A DNA stretch of 64,000 bases from Paenisporosarcina cavernae (GTDB lineage Bacteria; Bacillota; Bacilli; Bacillales_A; Planococcaceae): assembly GCF_003595195.1 (NCBI RefSeq), contig NZ_CP032418.1:1810501-1874500 (forward strand), written 5' to 3'. The position numbers were made by a program, and so were the translations under genes. The stretch's first letter is position 1. Every line of letters begins with the position of its first letter. Positions 1,011 to 63,879 of the stretch are shown piece by piece. The notes beneath the pieces were generated by a model. It was not told the DNA's origin. It searched no databases and saw only the letters and a list, made by a program, of their open reading frames with translations.

Positions 1011-1331
1011 ATGAAAACAATTTCTACTAACAAAGATTTTCAAGATATTTTGAATAGCGGTCAAGAAGTGATGATTAAATTCCAAGCAAATTGGTGTCCA
1101 GATTGTCGTCGCATGGATATGTTCATTGACCCAATTGTGGAACAATATCAACAATACGAATGGTACGATATCGATCGCGATGAACTTCCTGAAATTGCAG
1201 AACAGTTTGATGTTCGAGGCATTCCAAGTTTATTGCGTTTCAAAAATGGAGAGAAATTAGCACATTTGCACAGCGCGAATGCAAAGTCTCCTGAACAAGT
1301 TACAGAGTTTTTAGAAGCTCAAAAAGCTTGA
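1011..1331 (+). CDS. Thioredoxin-like protein (WCPDC active site)
   Basis: A 106-residue thioredoxin fold protein. The active site is W28-C29-P-D-C32, and the cis-proline loop GIPSLLRFKNGE is present, so both redox cysteines and the substrate-binding loop are intact. It resembles the small Bacillus thioredoxin-like proteins of the YtpP kind rather than TrxA, whose motif is WCGPC. Two in-frame Met codons exist at 1005 and 1011; the GGAGG box at 999-1003 is only one base from the first and seven from the second, so the second is chosen. It is cytoplasmic (no signal peptide). A strong terminator follows, so the gene is probably the end of its own transcript. Confidence 0.85.
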   Translation: MKTISTNKDFQDILNSGQEVMIKFQANWCPDCRRMDMFIDPIVEQYQQYEWYDIDRDELPEIAEQFDVRGIPSLLRFKNGEKLAHLHSANAKSPEQVTEFLEAQKA

Positions 1332-1372
1332 TGTGATGTAAATGAAAAATTGCATTCTTTCCACGTAATAAA

Positions 1373-4680: not shown

Positions 4681-4751
4681 ATTTTAATATAGCATAAAGA
4701 GATCGATGGCTTCAAAATAAATCTTCAAGGTGAATGTATTGCGCGGGCAGA

Positions 4752-5486
4752 GTGTCCTAATGTCCGAGGAAAGTGTCCTAATGTCCGAGGAAAGTGTCCT
4801 AATGTCCGAGGAAAGTGTCCTAATGTCCAGCGAAAGTGTCTCAATGTTTGAGGAAAGTGTCCCAATGTCCAGCGAAAGTGTCTCAATGTTTCTGGAAAGT
4901 GTCCCAATGTCCAGCGAAAGTGTCCTAATGTCCGAGGAAAGTGTCCTAATGTCCAGCGAAAGTGTCCTAATGTCCAAGGAAAGTGTCCCAATGTCCAGCG
5001 AAAGTGTCTCAATGTTTCTGGAAAGTGTCCCAATGTCCAGCGAAAGTGTCCTAATGTCCGAGGAAAGTGTCCTAATGTCCGAGGAATGTGTCCTAATGTT
5101 TCTGGAAAGTGTCCTAATGTCCGAGGAAAGTGTCCCAATGTTTCTGGAAAGTGTCCTAATGTCCAGCGAAAATGTCCTAATGTTTCTGGAAAGTGTCCTA
5201 ATGTCCGAGGAAAGTGTCCTAATGTCCAGCGAAAGTGTCCTAATGTCCGAGGAAAGTGTCCTAATGTCCGAGGAAAGTGTCCTAATGTCCAGCGAAAGTG
5301 TCCTAATGTCCAAGGAAAGTGTCCTAATGTCCGAGGAAAGTGTCCTAATGTCCGAGGAATGTGTCCTAATGTTTCTGGAAAGTGTCCTAATGTCCGAGGA
5401 AAGTGTCCTAATGTCCGAGGAAAGTGTCCCAATGTTTCTGGAAAGTGTCCTAATGTCCGAGGAAAGTGTCCAAATGTCCGCGCCTA
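4752..5486. repeat. Tandem array of 35 units of 21 bp, no indels
   Basis: Thirty-five copies of GTGTCCTAATGTCCGAGGAAA follow one another from 4752 to 5486 with every unit exactly 21 bp; a further out-of-phase half copy starts at 5488. The GTGTCCYAATGT half is nearly constant, while the next seven bases come in a few variants (TCCGAGG, TCCAGCG, TTTCTGG, TTTGAGG, TCCAAGG). Groups of units recur in the same order (for example units 6-9 and 12-15), which points to larger segmental duplications. Because 21 is divisible by three and stops are absent, all six frames stay open, giving heptad-repeat peptides that I do not consider genes. The array lies between two divergent genes. Confidence 0.97.
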
Positions 5487-5587
5487 AGTGTCCCAAAGTT
5501 ACGAAATTCCCTATTAATAGACTGCCTACTACTTTATCTAGACGTTATGTGTATCCAGTATCTAGTTTCTCTTTTACTCATTCGGAG

Positions 5588-5621
5588 GATTTTCGGTTGA
5601 CCGAAAATCTTTTTATTTTTT
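5588..5621 (+). terminator. Terminator-like hairpin downstream of the 21-bp array
   Basis: A perfect inverted repeat, GATTTTCGGT (5588-5597) with ACCGAAAATC (5600-5609), is followed at once by TTTTTATTTTTT. It has the form of a plus-strand intrinsic terminator, yet no plus-strand gene lies upstream, only the 21-bp array. It could end a transcript of the array or protect the downstream gene from read-through. The remaining sequence to 5771 shows nothing else I can name. Confidence 0.75.
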
Positions 5622-5771
5622 ACAACCATAATGATAGCCTGATAAATTATCCCAATGTAGCACGCCATTTTCACCCTTCCCTGCTACCTCTATCCTTGGC
5701 AGTTTTTCTTCTAGTAAGCTATACTTTTTTCACATTGAATCGTATTCCTGCTTACTTGAAAGGGGATTATC

Positions 5772-6293
5772 ATGAAGGTTTTATTGGATGTAGAAGGGTT
5801 TTCTCAACATGATACGTCGATTGAGGCGGCTAGTCGAAATTCGGCATGTGGCCCTGTAACGGTTTTTACGCTGTTGAATTATTGGATGCCGAATGCGTGT
5901 CCATATGGGATGAATGAGTTGTATGCATTACTTGGGACGACGAGAATTGGACTTTTTACGTGGCGAATGAAAAGAAGATTGCGGAAGTTGCTTGGTTCTT
6001 CGTGGGATATTGAGACAATCTCGTTAGAGGATTCGTTGGAAGAGTTACAACAAGGTCGTCCTGTGGCGATGAAATTTGACCGCTATTTCCGATTTCAATT
6101 CCGTTCTGATTTTGAGTTTTCCTATCACTGGGTCCCGTTGATTGGATTTGAAGAAGTAAACGGAGAGGTGCGTTTATTTATACATGATAATGGCTCACCG
6201 ACAAAAGAGAGTCATATTCGTAAAGTTTCGTATACAAAAAATAAGCGAATCCTCACGTTTGTAAGGATCCGCCCACATTCTAGTTTGGTTTAA
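5772..6293 (+). CDS. C39-like papain-fold peptidase family protein
   Basis: A 173-residue protein with the features of C39-like cysteine peptidases: Cys in NSACGPVT (C26), His in YHWVPLIGF (H119) and Asp/Asn in FIHDNGSP (D139, N140). Similar proteins in Bacillus are butirosin BtrH-like N-terminal or C39-family hypothetical proteins. There is no signal peptide, no transporter and no bacteriocin gene nearby, so peptide processing is not supported by context. AAGGGGA precedes the ATG. Its last 14 bases overlap the end of the convergent RsbR-like gene. Substrate unknown. Confidence 0.68.
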   Translation: MKVLLDVEGFSQHDTSIEAASRNSACGPVTVFTLLNYWMPNACPYGMNELYALLGTTRIGLFTWRMKRRLRKLLGSSWDIETISLEDSLEELQQGRPVAMKFDRYFRFQFRSDFEFSYHWVPLIGFEEVNGEVRLFIHDNGSPTKESHIRKVSYTKNKRILTFVRIRPHSSLV

Positions 6294-8717: not shown

Positions 8718-9953
8718 ATGGATATACATAATGGACTGCTTTACTGGAATTCGACATTTCCAGAGCCTGTAGAGATACCTTCAATGGAAAAAGACGCATT
8801 ATATGATGTAATAGTAGTGGGTGGAGGTATGTCCGGAAGTTTAACCGCCCTCGCTTTAGTTGAAAAAGGCTGGAAAGTAGCACTTCTTGATAAACGTATG
8901 CCCGGTAGCGGAAGCACCATGGCAAATACTGGCCTGTTGCAATACTCAAACGATATTATGCTGCATGAATTGATTGATCAAATTGACGAACGCGATGCAG
9001 TTCGGTTTTATGAACTTTGTTTTGAAGCAATGGGACAACTTCGCGGTGTGGCAAGTGAATTGCCAATAGATCCGGACTTCATCGTTCGTCCGAGTATTTG
9101 TTATGCAAGTGAGGATTCTCATGTCGAAAAATTACAGCGTGAATATGAGACCTTAAAAAAATTCGGATTCCCTTGCGATTATTGGAATGAAGAGCAGGTA
9201 ACCGAAAAACTGGGATTCTCAAAACCTGCAGCGCTTGTTACATATGAGGATGCAGAAGTAAATCCGTATAAATTCGTCCAAGGTATCGTCAAGCACTTAA
9301 TCGACAAAGGTGTGTCCATTTTCCCTTATACAGATGTCCGAGACGTGCATGAAGAAAATTCGTTATTACATGTAAAAACATCAGCAGGAGAATTTGTTAC
9401 CGAGAAAATAGTGTGGACAACCGGCTATGAAACATTACCAGTTGGACATCGAATTGGTGCAGATATCAATCGTTCCTATGCAATGGTCACGAATGTGATT
9501 AATCAAGGAGTCAAAACATCTGGCAACAAAGACATTTGGCATGAAGGTACGCTCATATGGGAAACAGCAAGGCCCTATTTATACATTCGTCAAACGGCTG
9601 AAGGACGCATCTTGATTGGTGGATTAGACGAAGATAAAGCAGAAGCACCAGCTTCAGAAAAAGTGATTGCAGAACACGCGGAAAAATTACGGATAGAATT
9701 AAAGAAATTATTTCCTCAAATTGATACTGTTGTCGAATTCGCTTATGGTGCCACGTTCGGGGAGTCTATTGATAACTTGCCTTTTATCGGCAAGCATCCG
9801 ACAAAAGAAGGACATTATTATTTGCTTGGGTACGGTGGAAATGGAACCGTCTACAGTATGTTAGGATCTAAAATGATCGCAGAGTTAATGGAAAACGGCT
9901 TTCATCCAGATGCAGATCTTGTACAGCTCGAACGAAAATACGGCATCAAATAA
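8718..9953 (+). CDS. FAD-dependent oxidoreductase of the D-amino acid oxidase family
   Basis: The 411-residue protein starts with a short leader and then the dinucleotide-binding motif DVIVVGGGMSGSLTALALVEKGW (about residues 28-50), followed by the glycine/D-amino acid oxidase (DAO) fold; the C-terminal FAD loop is LPFIGKHPTKEGHYYLLGYGGNG. A GAGG box lies a few bases before the ATG. It is transcribed alone; a periodic repeat element and then a terminator follow. Related proteins oxidise secondary or D-amino acids, but the substrate of this one is not evident. Confidence 0.83.
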   Translation: MDIHNGLLYWNSTFPEPVEIPSMEKDALYDVIVVGGGMSGSLTALALVEKGWKVALLDKRMPGSGSTMANTGLLQYSNDIMLHELIDQIDERDAVRFYELCFEAMGQLRGVASELPIDPDFIVRPSICYASEDSHVEKLQREYETLKKFGFPCDYWNEEQVTEKLGFSKPAALVTYEDAEVNPYKFVQGIVKHLIDKGVSIFPYTDVRDVHEENSLLHVKTSAGEFVTEKIVWTTGYETLPVGHRIGADINRSYAMVTNVINQGVKTSGNKDIWHEGTLIWETARPYLYIRQTAEGRILIGGLDEDKAEAPASEKVIAEHAEKLRIELKKLFPQIDTVVEFAYGATFGESIDNLPFIGKHPTKEGHYYLLGYGGNGTVYSMLGSKMIAELMENGFHPDADLVQLERKYGIK

Positions 9954-9966
9954 TCGGAACGTTTAC

Positions 9967-10079
9967 CGCTCATAAACTGCGGTTGAACGCTCAAAAATCA
10001 GCATAAGCGATGTTATTATCGCATTAAACGATTATTACTAAATTGTAAGAGTTCATAAATTAGTCAAAACCGCTCATAA
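9967..10079. repeat. Six-word array with 20-21 bp period (CGCTCATAA type)
   Basis: Words beginning at 9967, 9988, 10008, 10029, 10050 and 10071 match CGCTCATAA to varying degrees (exact at the first and last; CGCTCAAAA, CGATTATTA and AGTTCATAA between; the one at 10008 is poor). The steps are 21, 20, 21, 21 and 21 bases. The bases between words are not conserved. It lies directly after the FAD oxidoreductase stop. The same spacing occurs in the element at 56819-56931. Confidence 0.75.
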
Positions 10080-10233: not shown

Positions 10234-11730
10234 TTATTTCGATTTTCCAGTGTCTTCGTATAAATGATCGGCGATTCGTTCCACGTCATGATGGAAAATG
10301 CGATCTTCCACAACGGATGGACAAACTTTTCGTAGCTCATCCCATTTCGCGCGTAGCTTCGGAGCCATTTTTTCTACACCACGATATTCCGTGCCTTGAA
10401 GTGCGCATAATGTTTCAATAGCAAGCACTCGACGTGCATTCTGAATAATCTGTGCTGCGTGTCGAGAACCGATTGTCCCCATGCTCACGTGATCTTCTTG
10501 ATTCGCAGAAGATGGAATCGAGTCCACAGACGCTGGGTGCGCAAGTGTTTTATTCTCGGACACAAGACTCGCCGCTGCATATTGTAAAATCATTGCACCT
10601 GACTGTAAGCCGGGTTCTGGACTTAAAAATGCCGGCAATCCATCATTTAATTGCGGATTCACCAGACGTTCAATACGTCGCTCCGAGACATTCGCAAGCT
10701 CTGCTACGCCAAGTTTTAAGAAGTCCATTGCAAAAGCGATTGGTTGTCCGTGGAAATTCCCACCAGACACGACCACTTCCCCATCTTCAAAAATCAATGG
10801 ATTATCGGTTGCTGCATTCATTTCAATTTCTAATTTTTCTTTCACATAATTCAATACTTGCCAGCTTGCGCCGTGAATTTGTGGGATGCATCGCAGAGAA
10901 TACGCATCCTGAACGCGGTGTTCTCCTTGCGCGGAAATTAGTTGACTTCCGTCCATCCACTCTAGCATTCGACTCGCCACAGCGATTTGTTCTTGATACC
11001 CACGTGCAATGTGGATTTCTTCTCGGAAAGCATCTCGTATTCCACGGAGCGATTCCATGGTCATTGCCGCGATCCATTCACTTTGATAGGCTAGTGTTTC
11101 CGCTTCTAAGTAATTCACCACACCTTGCGCAGTCATTGCTTGCGTTCCGTTTATTAACGCCAAACCTTCCTTCGCTTCCAGCACAATATTGTCCATCCCG
11201 CGATCTTTCCACACGTTCGAAGCATCGATTTTCTGCCCTTCATTCCAAATAGCGCCTTCCCCTAATAACACTAAAGCTAAGTGAGATAACGGCGCCAAAT
11301 CTCCAGAAGCTCCAAGCGAACCTTGACTTGGAATCACTGGATGAATGTGATGGTTCGCCATAAACGCTAAGCGCTCCACAACCTCCACTCGAATCCCCGA
11401 GAACCCTTTCAATAGGGCATTTAAGCGAAGCACCACAATCGCACGAGACACCATTTCTGGAAATGCATCACCGATTCCACACGCATGCGAACGGATTAAA
11501 TGGAGTTGCAGTGCACGAACGTCCTTCTCGTCAATGCTCACATCGCTGAACTTCCCGAACCCAGTGTTAATCCCATAAATCGTTTCTTTATTCGCGACGA
11601 TGCGATCAACCGAATCACGGCTCTTTTGCACCCGTTTTAGTGCTTCTGTATCTAACTGAATTTCTTCTTGTTGAAATAAAATACGACGCATTTCTTCCAG
11701 CGTCAATGTCGAACCTGTTAATGTAATCAT
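10234..11730 (-). CDS. hutH: Histidine ammonia-lyase (histidase)
   Basis: Full-length (498 residues) member of the aromatic amino acid lyase family. The MIO prosthetic group forms from A141-S142-G143 in [14 protein letters not shown], and the catalytic Tyr is Y53 in IYGINTGFG; the MATDNP-like motif appears as [10 protein letters not shown]. It converts histidine to urocanate and ammonia, the first step of histidine degradation. GAGGG precedes the ATG. No hutU, hutI, hutG or histidine permease gene lies next to it, unlike the usual hut operon, so the rest of the pathway must be elsewhere if present. Confidence 0.95.
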
Positions 11731-22753: not shown

Positions 22754-23075
22754 AAAAAAAATCCCACCCCCAAGACGATTTGTCTTGGGGACGAGAGTTA
22801 CATGTCGTGGTACCACCCCAGTTTGTCCTAATGTCACCATTAGCACCTTTTCAAGTACGGCAAAAAAAACTTGCGTATACTATAGCTTTCTAACGGGAGC
22901 ATCCGTCACACCATCTCAAGTAAACCACACACATTTACAAGTCCTGTGCAAAGCTCAGAGGCTTGTTTCGGCAAATCTTCTCTTACCCTTTTGCAGCTAC
23001 CAGGGCTCTCTGTCAAAGAAAACAATTCACGTACTCTTCTCTTCATCGCTGTTATTGTTCTTAATCATAGCACAC
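22754..23075 (-). promoter_or_regulatory. T-box riboswitch leader
   Basis: On the minus strand the region holds the T-box sequence ACTGGGGTGGTACCACG (22806-22822) and an intrinsic terminator of 9 bp (22768-22776 with 22782-22790, loop of five, then a run of T at 22761-22754). Further upstream is a stem I with the conserved GACAGAGAGCC and GTAGCTGCAAAAGGG elements. The probable specifier loop reads CGAAACAAGCCTCTGAGC near 22963; ACA (threonine) is the best candidate codon but uncertain. An extended -10 element TGTGCTATGAT precedes it near 23065-23075. The leader controls the MFS gene by tRNA-dependent antitermination. Confidence 0.93.
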
Positions 23076-38000: not shown

Positions 38001-38011
38001 TTTTCTAACTA

Positions 38012-38362
38012 TGGAGACGGCGGGAGTTGAACCCGCGTCCAGAAACTCTGACACTCAAGCTTCTACGCGTGTAGCTTACCTATTTGCAATTCGCGTAACA
38101 TTATGCCGATAAGCAGGCGTCTTGTACGCTAACTTGGAAATCTCTTATTCGTGACTCAAGTGGCACCACGAATCGTATCCCACTAAAGTTGAGCTCTTCC
38201 AAACCACATGGGCGATGGTCAGGTCGAGCAGCTACGCAACTTACGCTGCGAAAGCTAGGTTTTGGTTTTTGCCAGTTATTATAAACTGCCGTTGATACGG
38301 AGCCGAGCCCTCCGACGCGCAACTCAAGCTAAGACAATCCCTGTCGAATCCGTAACGTCCCC
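38012..38362 (-). ncRNA. ssrA: Transfer-messenger RNA
   Basis: A 351-base tmRNA. The 5' end GGGGACGTTACGGATTCGAC and the 3' end, with a T-arm GGTTCAACTCCCGCC and CCA encoded, form the tRNA-like part. The tag reading frame is at 38241-38273 and encodes GKNQNLAFAA before a TAA, so the degradation tag is A-GKNQNLAFAA, 11 residues including the Ala carried by the tRNA. It rescues stalled ribosomes together with SmpB, whose gene lies 47 bases upstream. Confidence 0.97.
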
Positions 38363-52893: not shown

Positions 52894-52965
52894 GCCCTCG
52901 TAGTGTAATGGATAACACGTAAGATTCCGGTTCTTAAAATAGGGGTTCGATTCCCTTCGAGGGCG
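52894..52965 (+). tRNA. tRNA-Arg (anticodon CCG)
   Basis: A 72-base tRNA. The acceptor arm pairs GCCCTCG (52894-52900) with CGAGGGC (52958-52964) plus a G discriminator. The anticodon loop is TTCCGGT on an AAGA/TCTT stem, giving anticodon CCG, which reads CGG arginine codons. The T loop is GGTTCGATTCC. CCA is not encoded. It has its own promoter and terminator. Confidence 0.94.
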
Positions 52966-55275: not shown

Positions 55276-56160
55276 TCAGCCCTTTCTCAGCTTAATGTCA
55301 CGATGCGTGACCACTGTATCATAATCTAGTCCCAATAGTTTACCATAGTATTCCGCTAAGGTAACAGAACGATGCTGACCACCTGTACATCCGAAAGCAA
55401 TGACTAATTGACGCTTTCCTTCCTTCTTGTACAACGGAATCATGTATCGCAGTAAATCGGTTAACTTTTCGATTAACACTTTTGTTTCCTCGAATTTTAA
55501 AACGTATCCACTTACCTCTTCATTCATTCCCGTAAGCGGTCGTAAATTTTCGATATAATATGGATTTGGCAAGAAACGAACATCGAACACCAAATCGGCA
55601 TCAATCGGAAGACCATGCTTAAAGCCAAACGACAGAATATTTACTGTAAACGTTGCAGACTCTTGTGAGTTAAATTCCTGTTGGATCTTTTCACGCAACT
55701 GCACTGGTTTTAAACTCGATGTTTGGAAAATGAAGTTCGCTCTGCCCTTCAACTCTGACAATAATTGCCTCTCTTTGTGAATTCCATCTAACGGTAGACC
55801 TGCTGGCGCAAGTGGATGCGAACGGCGAGACTCTTTGTATCGTCTTACTAGCGTCTGATCATCTGCATCTAAAAACACAATTTTCGGTGTAATTTGCAGT
55901 TCCTTTGATAAAGAATCGAGGGTGCCTATGAGGGAATCGAACATATCTCCGCCGCGCATGTCAATAACAGCCGCGACTTTACGCATATCCTTCCCCGATT
56001 CTTTCATTAACTTTAAAAACGTCATTAATAGGGCTGGAGGTAAATTATCGATACAGAAAAATCCCAAATCCTCAAAACTTTGGATAGCTACTGTTTTTCC
56101 TGCTCCAGACATTCCTGTGATCAAAACAAATTGATTATCAATCGAGGGTGAGTTATCCAT
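55276..56160 (-). CDS. rapZ: RNase adapter/nucleotide-binding protein RapZ (YvcJ)
   Basis: A 294-residue P-loop protein: Walker A G16-M-S-G-A-G-K-T23 and the C-terminal domain [19 protein letters not shown]. In B. subtilis YvcJ hydrolyses GTP and affects competence; in E. coli RapZ controls GlmZ RNA. Its ATG overlaps the NUDIX gene by eight bases. Confidence 0.96.
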
Positions 56161-56635
56161 TTAACACGTCTCCTTCAGACGAAGATTGTAAGTGTTGTTT
56201 CAACAGTTGAAACTCTTCTGTGTAATGAAACGTTCCGTACTGTGTTCCACTTTCCTTCACAGCAAACAAAAGATTCGCTCGATCTCCTTCTGCCATTGGT
56301 AACGACTCTAAATGTTCGATAGGATGCCATTCAAGCAATCCTTCTCTTGTTTCCTCCCACGGAGTCCCTGTAAGACCATTCGCTACAAAAGTAAATAACA
56401 TCCACTCATCTTTCACTACTTCACCGTCTTCGATCACCATCGTATAAATTCCTTTTAAATGTGGTTGAATAGGTTTTGCATTTGTTTCTTCTGTAAATTC
56501 TCGAATTGCCGCGTCGTAAATCGATTCTTCCGGCTCCACTTTTCCACCAGGAGCTACATACCAATTTCGCCTTGGCTTTTTCAAAAGCAATACTTGCCCA
56601 TCTTGGACAACTAACAAATTCGCAATTCGTTGCAC
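56153..56635 (-). CDS. NUDIX hydrolase (YvcI-like)
   Basis: A 160-residue protein with the NUDIX box [20 protein letters not shown] (all key Gly/Glu residues present). Substrate unknown; it is the first gene of the yvcI-rapZ-yvcK-whiA-crh cluster, as in B. subtilis. Confidence 0.92.
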
Positions 56636-56818
56636 GTTTCACACTCCGCCCTCTGTAAACTCACTTCTTCTATTATACCGAAAGTTACAGATGCATATCA
56701 AAGTCTTTGCAAGAAAGAGAGAGGATTTTTGAGAATAGTTATGGATGAATTGAATAGAAAGAATTTTTTATTAGAAAATGGTTGATTCTGAGTTGTTTCT
56801 TTACATCTTTGAACTGAA

Positions 56819-56931
56819 CGCTTGTAATTCGGCATTAATCGCTTGTAAACCTCAACGAGCGCTTATAAACTCGACTTGTACGCTTATATTTAGAAGCTGA
56901 ACTCTTATAAATCGTCCATTACCGCTTATAA
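56819..56931. repeat. Six-word array with 20-21 bp period (CGCTTATAA type)
   Basis: CGCTTGTAA or CGCTTATAA words begin at 56819, 56840, 56860, 56881, 56902 (CTCTTATAA) and 56923: steps of 21, 20, 21, 21 and 21. Spacers are unrelated to each other. The element lies in the 534 bases between the NUDIX gene and trxB, where no gene is visible. Word count and spacing equal those at 9967-10079. Confidence 0.85.
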
Positions 56932-57029: not shown

Positions 57030-57075
57030 AAAGAGACCGCCTCTCCAATTAACTTGGAAAAACGGTCTTTCAAAG
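57030..57075 (-). terminator. Terminator downstream of trxB
   Basis: AGACCG (57033-57038) pairs with CGGTCT (57063-57068), with an inner stem CTCCAA/TTGGAA; on the minus strand CTCTTTTTTAG follows. It lies about 100 bases after the trxB stop. Confidence 0.75.
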
Positions 57076-57169: not shown

Positions 57170-58123
<954 letters not shown>

Positions 58124-63195: not shown

Positions 63196-63744
63196 ATGCT
63201 TAAAATTGCGTTAGATGCTGGGCATGGTGCCCAAACGCCCGGGAAGCGAACCCCAGATGGAAGAATGCGAGAATTTCAGTTCAATGAAGCTGTTGCAGTA
63301 GAACTAAAGAAGCGATGGATGAAGAAAGGATGGCTCGTTGTTTTTACGCATGACAAAACGAAAGATGTCTCCTTGCACGAGCGAGTCGAACTCGCAAATC
63401 GGATGAAAGTCGATCTCTTTGTATCGATACATGCCAACGCATTTGGTTCTGGTTGGAATGACGCAAACGGCATTGAAACGTTTACATGCACACATGCACA
63501 ACCTACAAGTCGAGCCATCGCACAAGCAATTCAACTGTCACTAAGTAAACGAACAGGGAGAAAAAATCGTGGAGTGAAAGAAGCAGACTTCACGGTATTG
63601 AAGCGAACGTTTATGCCCGCTGTATTAGTAGAATGCGGATTTATGACAAATAAAGAAGAAGCTGCGTTGTTACAAAGCACGGCATACCGCCAACTTTGTG
63701 CGGAAGCAATTGGAATAGGAGTGGAGGAGTACTTTCAACAGTAG
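63196..63744 (+). CDS. N-acetylmuramoyl-L-alanine amidase (Amidase_3)
   Basis: A 182-residue zinc amidase with H10 (DAGHG), E26, H79 (SIHANA) and catalytic E146 (VECGFMTN). There is no signal peptide and no cell-wall-binding domain; the protein is just the catalytic domain. Such forms occur as phage endolysins or mother-cell lysis enzymes such as CwlC (which has an added binding domain). No phage genes are near. AGGAGG lies nine bases before the ATG. Confidence 0.87.
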   Translation: MLKIALDAGHGAQTPGKRTPDGRMREFQFNEAVAVELKKRWMKKGWLVVFTHDKTKDVSLHERVELANRMKVDLFVSIHANAFGSGWNDANGIETFTCTHAQPTSRAIAQAIQLSLSKRTGRKNRGVKEADFTVLKRTFMPAVLVECGFMTNKEEAALLQSTAYRQLCAEAIGIGVEEYFQQ

Positions 63745-63767
63745 TTAAGCTTATGGGAAGATTGCCA

Positions 63768-63879
63768 GGACAAAAACAAGTGATTCCAGGACAAAATCGC
63801 GTTTTCAGAGTCAATTTCGAGTCATTCCGGGACAAAATGGAACATTTCAAGGACAAAATCAAGAAAAACCGAACATTAG
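63768..63879. repeat. Word array with 20-21 bp period (GGACAAAA type)
   Basis: GGACAAAA occurs at 63768, 63789, 63830 and 63851; degenerate words fall at 63810 (GTCAATTT) and 63872. Steps are 21, 21, 20, 21 and 21. It begins 24 bases after the amidase stop. The longer form TTCC-N1/2-GGACAAAA resembles the minus strand of the 4752-5486 unit. Confidence 0.8.

Follow-up and report, generated by a model that had tools for sequence, protein, structure and literature searches.

Noncoding DNA in the source genome of the window (the whole analyzed stretch of 64,000 nucleotides) carries arrays of short direct repeats that recur every 20 or 21 bp, about two helical turns. The repeated words are conserved while the spacers between them are free, the arrays lie mostly at the 3' ends of genes, and other species use other words at the same spacing. 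The reading that we favor, with a probability of about one half, is that the arrays are phased, iteron-like sites for a putative fast-evolving, sequence-specific DNA-binding protein.

Arrays of the window

The sequence-only reading had described two distant intergenic elements, A and B, as each holding six words whose starts are separated by 21, 20, 21, 21 and 21 bp. Element A bears this out: its words start at positions 56819, 56840, 56860, 56881, 56902 and 56923, four of them match CGCTYRTAA exactly, and the other two (CGCTTATAT and CTCTTATAA) are one base off. Its score of 90.7 in the detector described below is the highest in the window. For element B, the register of the spacings was confirmed, but the claim of six words in both elements was overstated. 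Of the words found in register (CGCTCATAA, CGCTCAAAA, CGATGTTAT, CGATTATTA, AGTTCATAA and CGCTCATAA), only the first and the last are exact, while one is one base off and three are two to four bases off. The same register was picked in element B by the word-agnostic detector, with scores of 69.4 in the window and 70.0 in the 464-kb scan.

Altogether, the window carries at least four arrays, A, B, C, and D (Table 1), and nine exact occurrences of CGCTYRTAA compared with 2.05 expected. TRF, at a score of 40, reported none of the elements A, B, and C. Array D lies within an ORF (4730-5812) that consists of its repeats and is probably a spurious gene prediction.

Table 1. Arrays of the window and the features next to them (window positions)
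Feature	Position	Strand	Description	Basis
Element A	56819..56931	+	Words in order: CGCTTGTAA, CGCTTGTAA, CGCTTATAA, CGCTTATAT, CTCTTATAA, CGCTTATAA	Sequence
Terminator-like hairpin	57034..57068	-	Of gene 57170-58120; one flank of element A	0.2 expected in shuffles
Promoter-like site	56672..56701	-	Other flank of element A	Weak evidence; 2.0 expected in shuffles
Thioredoxin-reductase-like gene (Pyr_redox_2)	57170..58120	-	Flanks element A; putative TrxB	Domain match
NUDIX-domain gene	56153..56635	-	Flanks element A	Domain match
Element B	9967..10079	+	Register of element A, degenerate middle words; begins 13 bp past the stop of 8718-9953	
FAD-dependent oxidoreductase (DAO) gene	8718..9953	+	Upstream of element B	Domain match
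Aromatic amino acid lyase gene	10234..11730	-	Downstream of element B	Domain match
Element C	63765..63877	+	CCAGGACAA-type words at 21-20-21-21-20 or 21-20-21-21-21; direct repeats	Score 77.3
Array D	4751..5480	+	About 35 copies of AGTGTCCTAATGTCCGAGGAA, period 21	TRF, 34.8 copies; unit table

Some arrays, such as a Sporosarcina pair and element C, which has the stop of 63196-63744 on one side and, on the other, a hairpin visible in the sequence, are located between a stop codon and a hairpin. They could accordingly act as RNA, their words in the 3' UTR binding an RNA-binding protein or affecting mRNA decay. We consider this very unlikely, as element A is flanked by terminator-like and promoter-like sites, the folding z-scores (-0.31/0.47 for A, -2.78/-1.89 for B, and 1.58/1.51 for C) point to no common fold, and a single-base precision of 20/21 would not be expected of single-stranded RNA. 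Moreover, neither the window elements nor eight array loci gave a match to Rfam 15 at the gathering score. The inconsistent z-scores and the absence of inverted pairs of at least 10 bp from elements A, B, and C also set the arrays apart from MITEs and REP-type palindromes. Elsewhere in the window, Rfam identified a tmRNA (38009-38362, minus strand), a T-box leader (22784-23055, minus strand) and a tRNA (52894-52965, plus strand).

The 20/21-bp period in the source genome

The source genome (G000, 2.54 Mb) was sampled over 464 kb including the window, with ORFs taken from a simple caller rather than from annotation. The word-agnostic detector compares six nine-base windows spaced p-1 or p and scores the columns that they share, with a cut-off of 65. 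In the window, three noncoding loci (A, B, and C) reached this cut-off at a spacing of 20/21 and none did at each of 12 other spacing pairs. In the 464-kb sample, 37 noncoding loci were found at 20/21, compared with zero to two at the 14 control pairs that have no gap in common with it; the overlapping pairs 19/20 and 21/22 gave 1 and 17 loci, respectively, with arrays shared with 20/21. Arrays were present in 34 of 182 noncoding segments, about a fifth, and in none in each of 10 dinucleotide shuffles. The spacing is therefore not a feature of shuffled sequence, and the further genomic copies on which the sequence-only reading depended are present.

Exact 7-mer pairs, counted independently over 74.4 kb of noncoding sequence, gave the same result, with 73.7 pairs per 10 kb at lag 21 and 12.5 at lag 20, and with 18.5, 42.9, 11.3, and 31.7 at the summed lags of 41, 42, 62, and 63, respectively. 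Every other lag between 8 and 65 gave 0 to 3.2 pairs, and lags 10 and 11 were not raised. The signal at lag 21 comes from 40 of 239 noncoding segments. Arrays found by their words likewise show steps of 20 or 21 bp or sums of these (exceptions: 19 five times, 23 twice, 39 once, 43 twice, and 44 once), and steps of 22 bp are absent although 20 and 21 are common. Hence, the proposed restriction to steps of essentially 20 and 21 bp holds on both counts.

A coding origin of the period was rejected, since the lag-21 signal of coding DNA in G000 stems mainly from four ORFs made up of arrays and steps of 20 bp break the reading frame. ORFs built wholly or at one end from arrays were noted at 4730-5812 in the window and at 1882007, 1955669, and 435819 in G000; the repeat "proteins" that they encode, with SVLMSEE- and TLGHSAA-like units, are probably spurious gene calls.

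The two-turn period also bears on RemA of Bacillus, whose target regions are described in an excerpt of one study as repeat-rich DNA of low conservation, possibly wrapped around a ring of protein, with 7-bp protected regions at 3-bp intervals, about one turn (PMC8481266). The arrays follow two turns, lags 10 and 11 showing no peak, and RemA was rejected as the binder on the period given in that excerpt (PMC8481266).

The order of the steps is less fixed than their size. In a fixed-frame scan, whose loci outside the window had been selected for having matches, 21-20-21-21-21 was no commoner than frames in which the 20 is shifted by one step in either direction, and a fixed six-word element as a unit was rejected because these neighboring frames score equally often. 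Exactly one step of 20 occurs in 13 of the 37 arrays and is the second or fourth interval in 10 of these 13 (post hoc p = 0.008), and several CGCYNATAGAA-type elements show 21-20-21-21-21 in a six-word frame.

Conserved words and free spacers

The 37 arrays of G000 contain many different words and share only the period. The pair A/B, presented by the sequence-only reading as two elements that share six words and one layout, is instead part of a genome-wide class with constant spacing and differing words. A two-word pattern with a spacing of 21 bp and up to two mismatches matched the whole of G000 26 times, compared with 20 times for a backwards-word control, and a looser pattern 91 times compared with 59; this control is not neutral, as the backwards word forms real arrays in other genomes. 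The relative word CGCYNATAGAA was counted by hand at about 20 loci. GTGTCCYAATG pairs were found 178 times in G000 and not once in 260 other genomes of the family.

Because the detector picks the best nine columns of each array, which is a weakness, the contrast between words and spacers was judged only on long arrays taken as a whole and on word-found arrays, the ends of which exact words define. In CGCTYRTAA arrays, variation amounts to 0-18% in the word columns compared with 12-48% in the spacer columns, and in GCGAGTATT arrays the respective values are 0-2% and 0-19%. Variants fall in the same columns across loci, as in CGCT[CT][AG]TAA and CGC[CT]NATAG. By eye, GGACACT recurs with different spacers at five loci and CCCATAG at four or five. 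In two long G000 arrays the variation concentrates outside the core, as it does by eye in array D; two shorter arrays are less clear, the units of the G034 arrays are near-homogeneous, and 76 of 232 units inside the G190 arrays carry a non-matching word. Conserved word and phase with varying spacers, first proposed from two elements, are thus found in further copies of this genome and of other Bacillales.

Minisatellites, or VNTRs, are tandem copies of variable number, and functionless minisatellites are the main rival explanation of the arrays. In that case, a replication, repair or recombination process would duplicate DNA in two-helical-turn steps, and the arrays would persist where they are harmless, at 3' ends, drift and homogenize, with species-specific words arising by concerted evolution. 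Array D and the G034 arrays are indeed tandem copies, the long arrays are mosaics of few unit types, and many different words have the period alone in common. Against this explanation speak the unequal drift of columns in CGCTYRTAA arrays and in two long arrays, where words are kept and spacers lost, the finding of one word at many loci with unrelated spacers, and the lack of 22-bp steps in word-found arrays. The arrays also differ from minisatellites in that a single period is common to arrays whose words are unrelated and in that each unit has a conserved core. On balance, we regard this explanation as possible but rather unlikely. An apparent local duplication was observed at 1902490-1902922 of G000, where two arrays of TTAATCACC units have alternating steps of 21 and 20 bp; by eye, words and spacers differ about equally often between these two arrays (1902490 and 1902792).

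CRISPR arrays combine a constant repeat of about 23 bp or more, which is lineage-specific, with variable spacers and a near-constant period. The arrays likewise have, at many loci, a constant repeat that is specific to the species, free spacers, and a period that is nearly constant, as would be the result of a CRISPR-like insertion of an 11-12-bp piece per unit with duplication of a short word. Extra units in long arrays, on the other hand, copy existing units and do not bring new spacers, which leaves this the least probable of the explanations weighed. In contrast to CRISPR arrays, the conserved part comprises about 9-13 bp and the rest of the unit 8-12 bp, dozens of loci are occupied, and spacers are often duplicated; neither the repeat size nor the unique spacers of CRISPR were found.

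Arrays in other genomes

At least one exact three-word CGCTYRTAA array is present in 29 of 261 genomes of the family. With 299 exact three-word matches, G209 lies far above every other family genome listed. A scan of 84,980 species, from which the genome of the window itself was perhaps left out, returned 33 stretches with the 21-20 three-word form, all assigned by title to Bacillus, Sporosarcina, Oceanobacillus, Cytobacillus or Fictibacillus and together carrying 35 arrays with between 3 and 38 exact words each. The array sequence is identical between G173/G177 and Sporosarcina koreensis/S. luteola, which suggests that the family compared is probably the Planococcaceae. The stretch with the 38-word array, from Bacillus sp. 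CECT 9360 (L073), also contains a c-di-GMP-I riboswitch identified by Rfam (1253-1339, plus strand).

Array density differs between genomes, as indicated by the few arrays in the G190 sample: in 168 kb, its noncoding DNA gave 2.0 pairs per 10 kb at lag 21, below several other lags, and the detector found two loci, both within one stretch. In the coding sample of G190, lags 21, 42, and 63 were raised (7.5, 6.4, and 4.5 per 10 kb), a smaller coding signal than that of G000. In 400 kb of the congener G075, lag 21 reached 9.7 pairs per 10 kb from 18 segments, and six loci scored at least 65, compared with zero to two at spacings without a shared gap.

Other genomes use other words. TNTGWCCR pairs are present in six of nine genomes of the genus and absent from G000, and GCGAGTATT is the array word of another genus (G033, G034, and G057), where the exact pairs listed for G033 and G034 have a spacing of 21 bp. 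On contig C215 of G073 (L201, L215, and L220), TTTGACCGATAAA arrays recur every 320 bp or so, forming a higher-order repeat. Pieces of at most 20 kb from each of 18 other genera, one of which had no usable noncoding DNA, were pooled and gave 30 pairs at lag 21, 11 at lag 19, and 9 at lag 20, while the remaining lags used averaged 5.3 pairs and reached 13 at most. They contained two arrays with yet other words and none at five control spacings. No array with a score of at least 65 was found in 50 kb of E. coli, a small control.

Gene context, orthologous gaps and orientation

The arrays favor gene 3' ends, as their distribution over gaps of 120-1500 bp in the 464-kb sample indicates. An array was found in 17 of 38 convergent gaps and in 17 of 109 tandem ones, while all 33 divergent gaps were free of arrays (Fisher p = 0.0009 for divergent gaps compared with the rest, p = 0.0006 for convergent compared with tandem gaps). 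Elsewhere, 2 of 29 elements in G000, 2 of 21 in G190, 1 of 14 in G033/G034, and 0 of 6 in G065 lie between divergent ORFs, as do none of the 26 named loci for which both flanks are known. For 22 of 29 elements in G000, the upstream gene has the same direction as the word.

Both words and location bear on the reading of the arrays as operators of LytTR-domain regulators. LRS-type LytTR operators are described in an excerpt of one study as 9-bp direct repeats with 11-13 bp between them, arranged as repeat pairs beside a promoter, just upstream of the -35 box (PMC6193735). The spacing agrees, as a period of 20/21 leaves 11-12 bp between nine-base words; published repeats such as ACCGCTTGT-12-ACCGCTTAT in the same excerpt carry the word and spacing of element A, which scores 6.67 with a matrix made from these repeats (PMC6193735). 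Over the 37 arrays, by contrast, the repeat given in the excerpt matches the element A word only, the mean matrix score is -2.01 compared with -2.04 after column permutation (30 of 60 permutations were as high), and no array besides A exceeds 1.70. With 3 to 38 exact words and a location mostly away from promoters, in convergent or tandem gaps and in none of 33 divergent ones, the arrays also differ from the repeat pairs placed at promoters in that excerpt. There is one LytTR gene in this genome, located inside an operon, and the 260 bp directly before the gene contain no array-word pair in any of 21 LytTR genes from six genomes (two have other pairs). LytTR was rejected as the binder, since the geometry fits and the words and location do not, and the operator reading is highly improbable.

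Orthologs of the thioredoxin-reductase-like gene beside element A are present in seven congeners with 84-87% identity. Two of these, G074 and G075, are nearly identical in the orthologous gap and contain six TGACCA/TGTCCA words on the same strand at 21-20-21-21-21; by eye, G072 may have a degenerate array and the other four congeners have none. This looks like replacement of the word within a kept frame. The shared layout may also be a coincidence involving an independent array, since the spacers are not detectably homologous: at nearly all offsets, in-register identity between G000 and G075 was no higher than out-of-register identity, and the best of 21 offsets had a permutation share of 0.05, as expected with that many offsets.

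Among 39 gaps orthologous between G000 and G075, an array was present in eight in G000, in two in G075, and in one in both, so that seven of the eight G000 arrays have no counterpart in G075. Several G000 arrays are extra DNA relative to G075, and such gain or loss between congeners favors the minisatellite explanation. The G075 gap corresponding to element B holds three words (CAGACGTGA/CAGATGTGA) with a score of 52.6, which is within noise.

Array polarity is consistent within some genomes, with no sign common to all. In G190 (L126-L144), the word is on the leading strand, as judged from local GC skew, in 18 of 21 arrays, in agreement with the two replichores seen in the skew along the chromosome with arrays masked. 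In G033/G034 (L146-L159), GCGAGTATT is on the lagging strand in 14 of 14 arrays, orthologous pairs included, and the six G034 arrays that have three exact words change strand a single time over the length of the chromosome. G065 shows a ratio of 5 to 1 in favor of the leading strand, while 35 arrays at named loci split 17 to 18.

Discussion

In iteron arrays of plasmid origins, direct repeats follow one another in helical phase at about 20-22 bp, with a word that differs between replicons; they are bound by a replication initiator and lie beside its gene or an origin. The arrays described here share the phased direct repeats about two turns apart and differ in that they are found on the chromosome, scattered over many loci at gene 3' ends, that their spacers are free, and that they are not known to neighbor a replication gene. 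By analogy, each conserved word of about 9-13 bp would be one site of the putative protein, and the 20/21-bp recurrence would place all sites on one face of the helix, where the protein could occupy adjacent sites, probably with cooperativity, in the way that initiator proteins occupy iterons. Since the arrays are intergenic and mostly at 3' ends, the likely role would be to bend, bridge or bound chromosomal DNA rather than to switch single promoters. The specificity of the putative protein would shift between species, with the word replaced and the geometry kept, and arrays would grow and shrink by tandem duplication. What the sequences display is the geometry, the contrast between words and spacers, the location, and the different words of different species; the protein, its cooperativity and its role are what we infer.

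Several results argue for such a protein. Steps confined to 20/21 bp, together with free spacers, agree with sites on a single helix face, and variation in fixed word columns fits a motif. The 37 arrays stand against zero to two in the controls and none in 10 shuffles, and the lag peaks occur only at 20/21 and their sums. Word columns vary less than spacers, the same word recurs with different spacers, its variation falls in the same columns, and other species have other words at the same spacing. In addition, the layout of element A is found with another word in G074/G075, and no array lies in the 33 divergent gaps of the sample. On the other side, the many words in one genome would need several proteins or a tolerant one, seven of the eight G000 arrays are absent from the orthologous G075 gaps, and the spacers in the shared gap are not detectably homologous. 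The contrast between words and spacers is weak in GCGAGTATT arrays, in the pair at 1902490/1902792, and in the G190 units with non-matching words (76 of 232). Some arrays do lie between divergent ORFs, and the orientation to replication has no common sign.

Among the matches listed for the open-licence PMC literature, none described this array layout, and the matches listed for the word strings were all unrelated to the arrays. We tentatively propose, as a possibility at well below even odds, that the arrays form a satellite-like system of the Bacillales: two-turn arrays at gene 3' ends bound by a putative, rapidly diverging DNA-binding protein, a bacterial counterpart of the centromere-box proteins and their satellites, with geometry conserved, the word replaced between species, and one replication orientation in some genomes. 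Arrays with a two-turn period in 34 of 182 noncoding segments need either a phased DNA-coating protein or a process that makes repeats of exact length. Neither is known to have been described, and each would add something new to the biology of a widespread order of bacteria.
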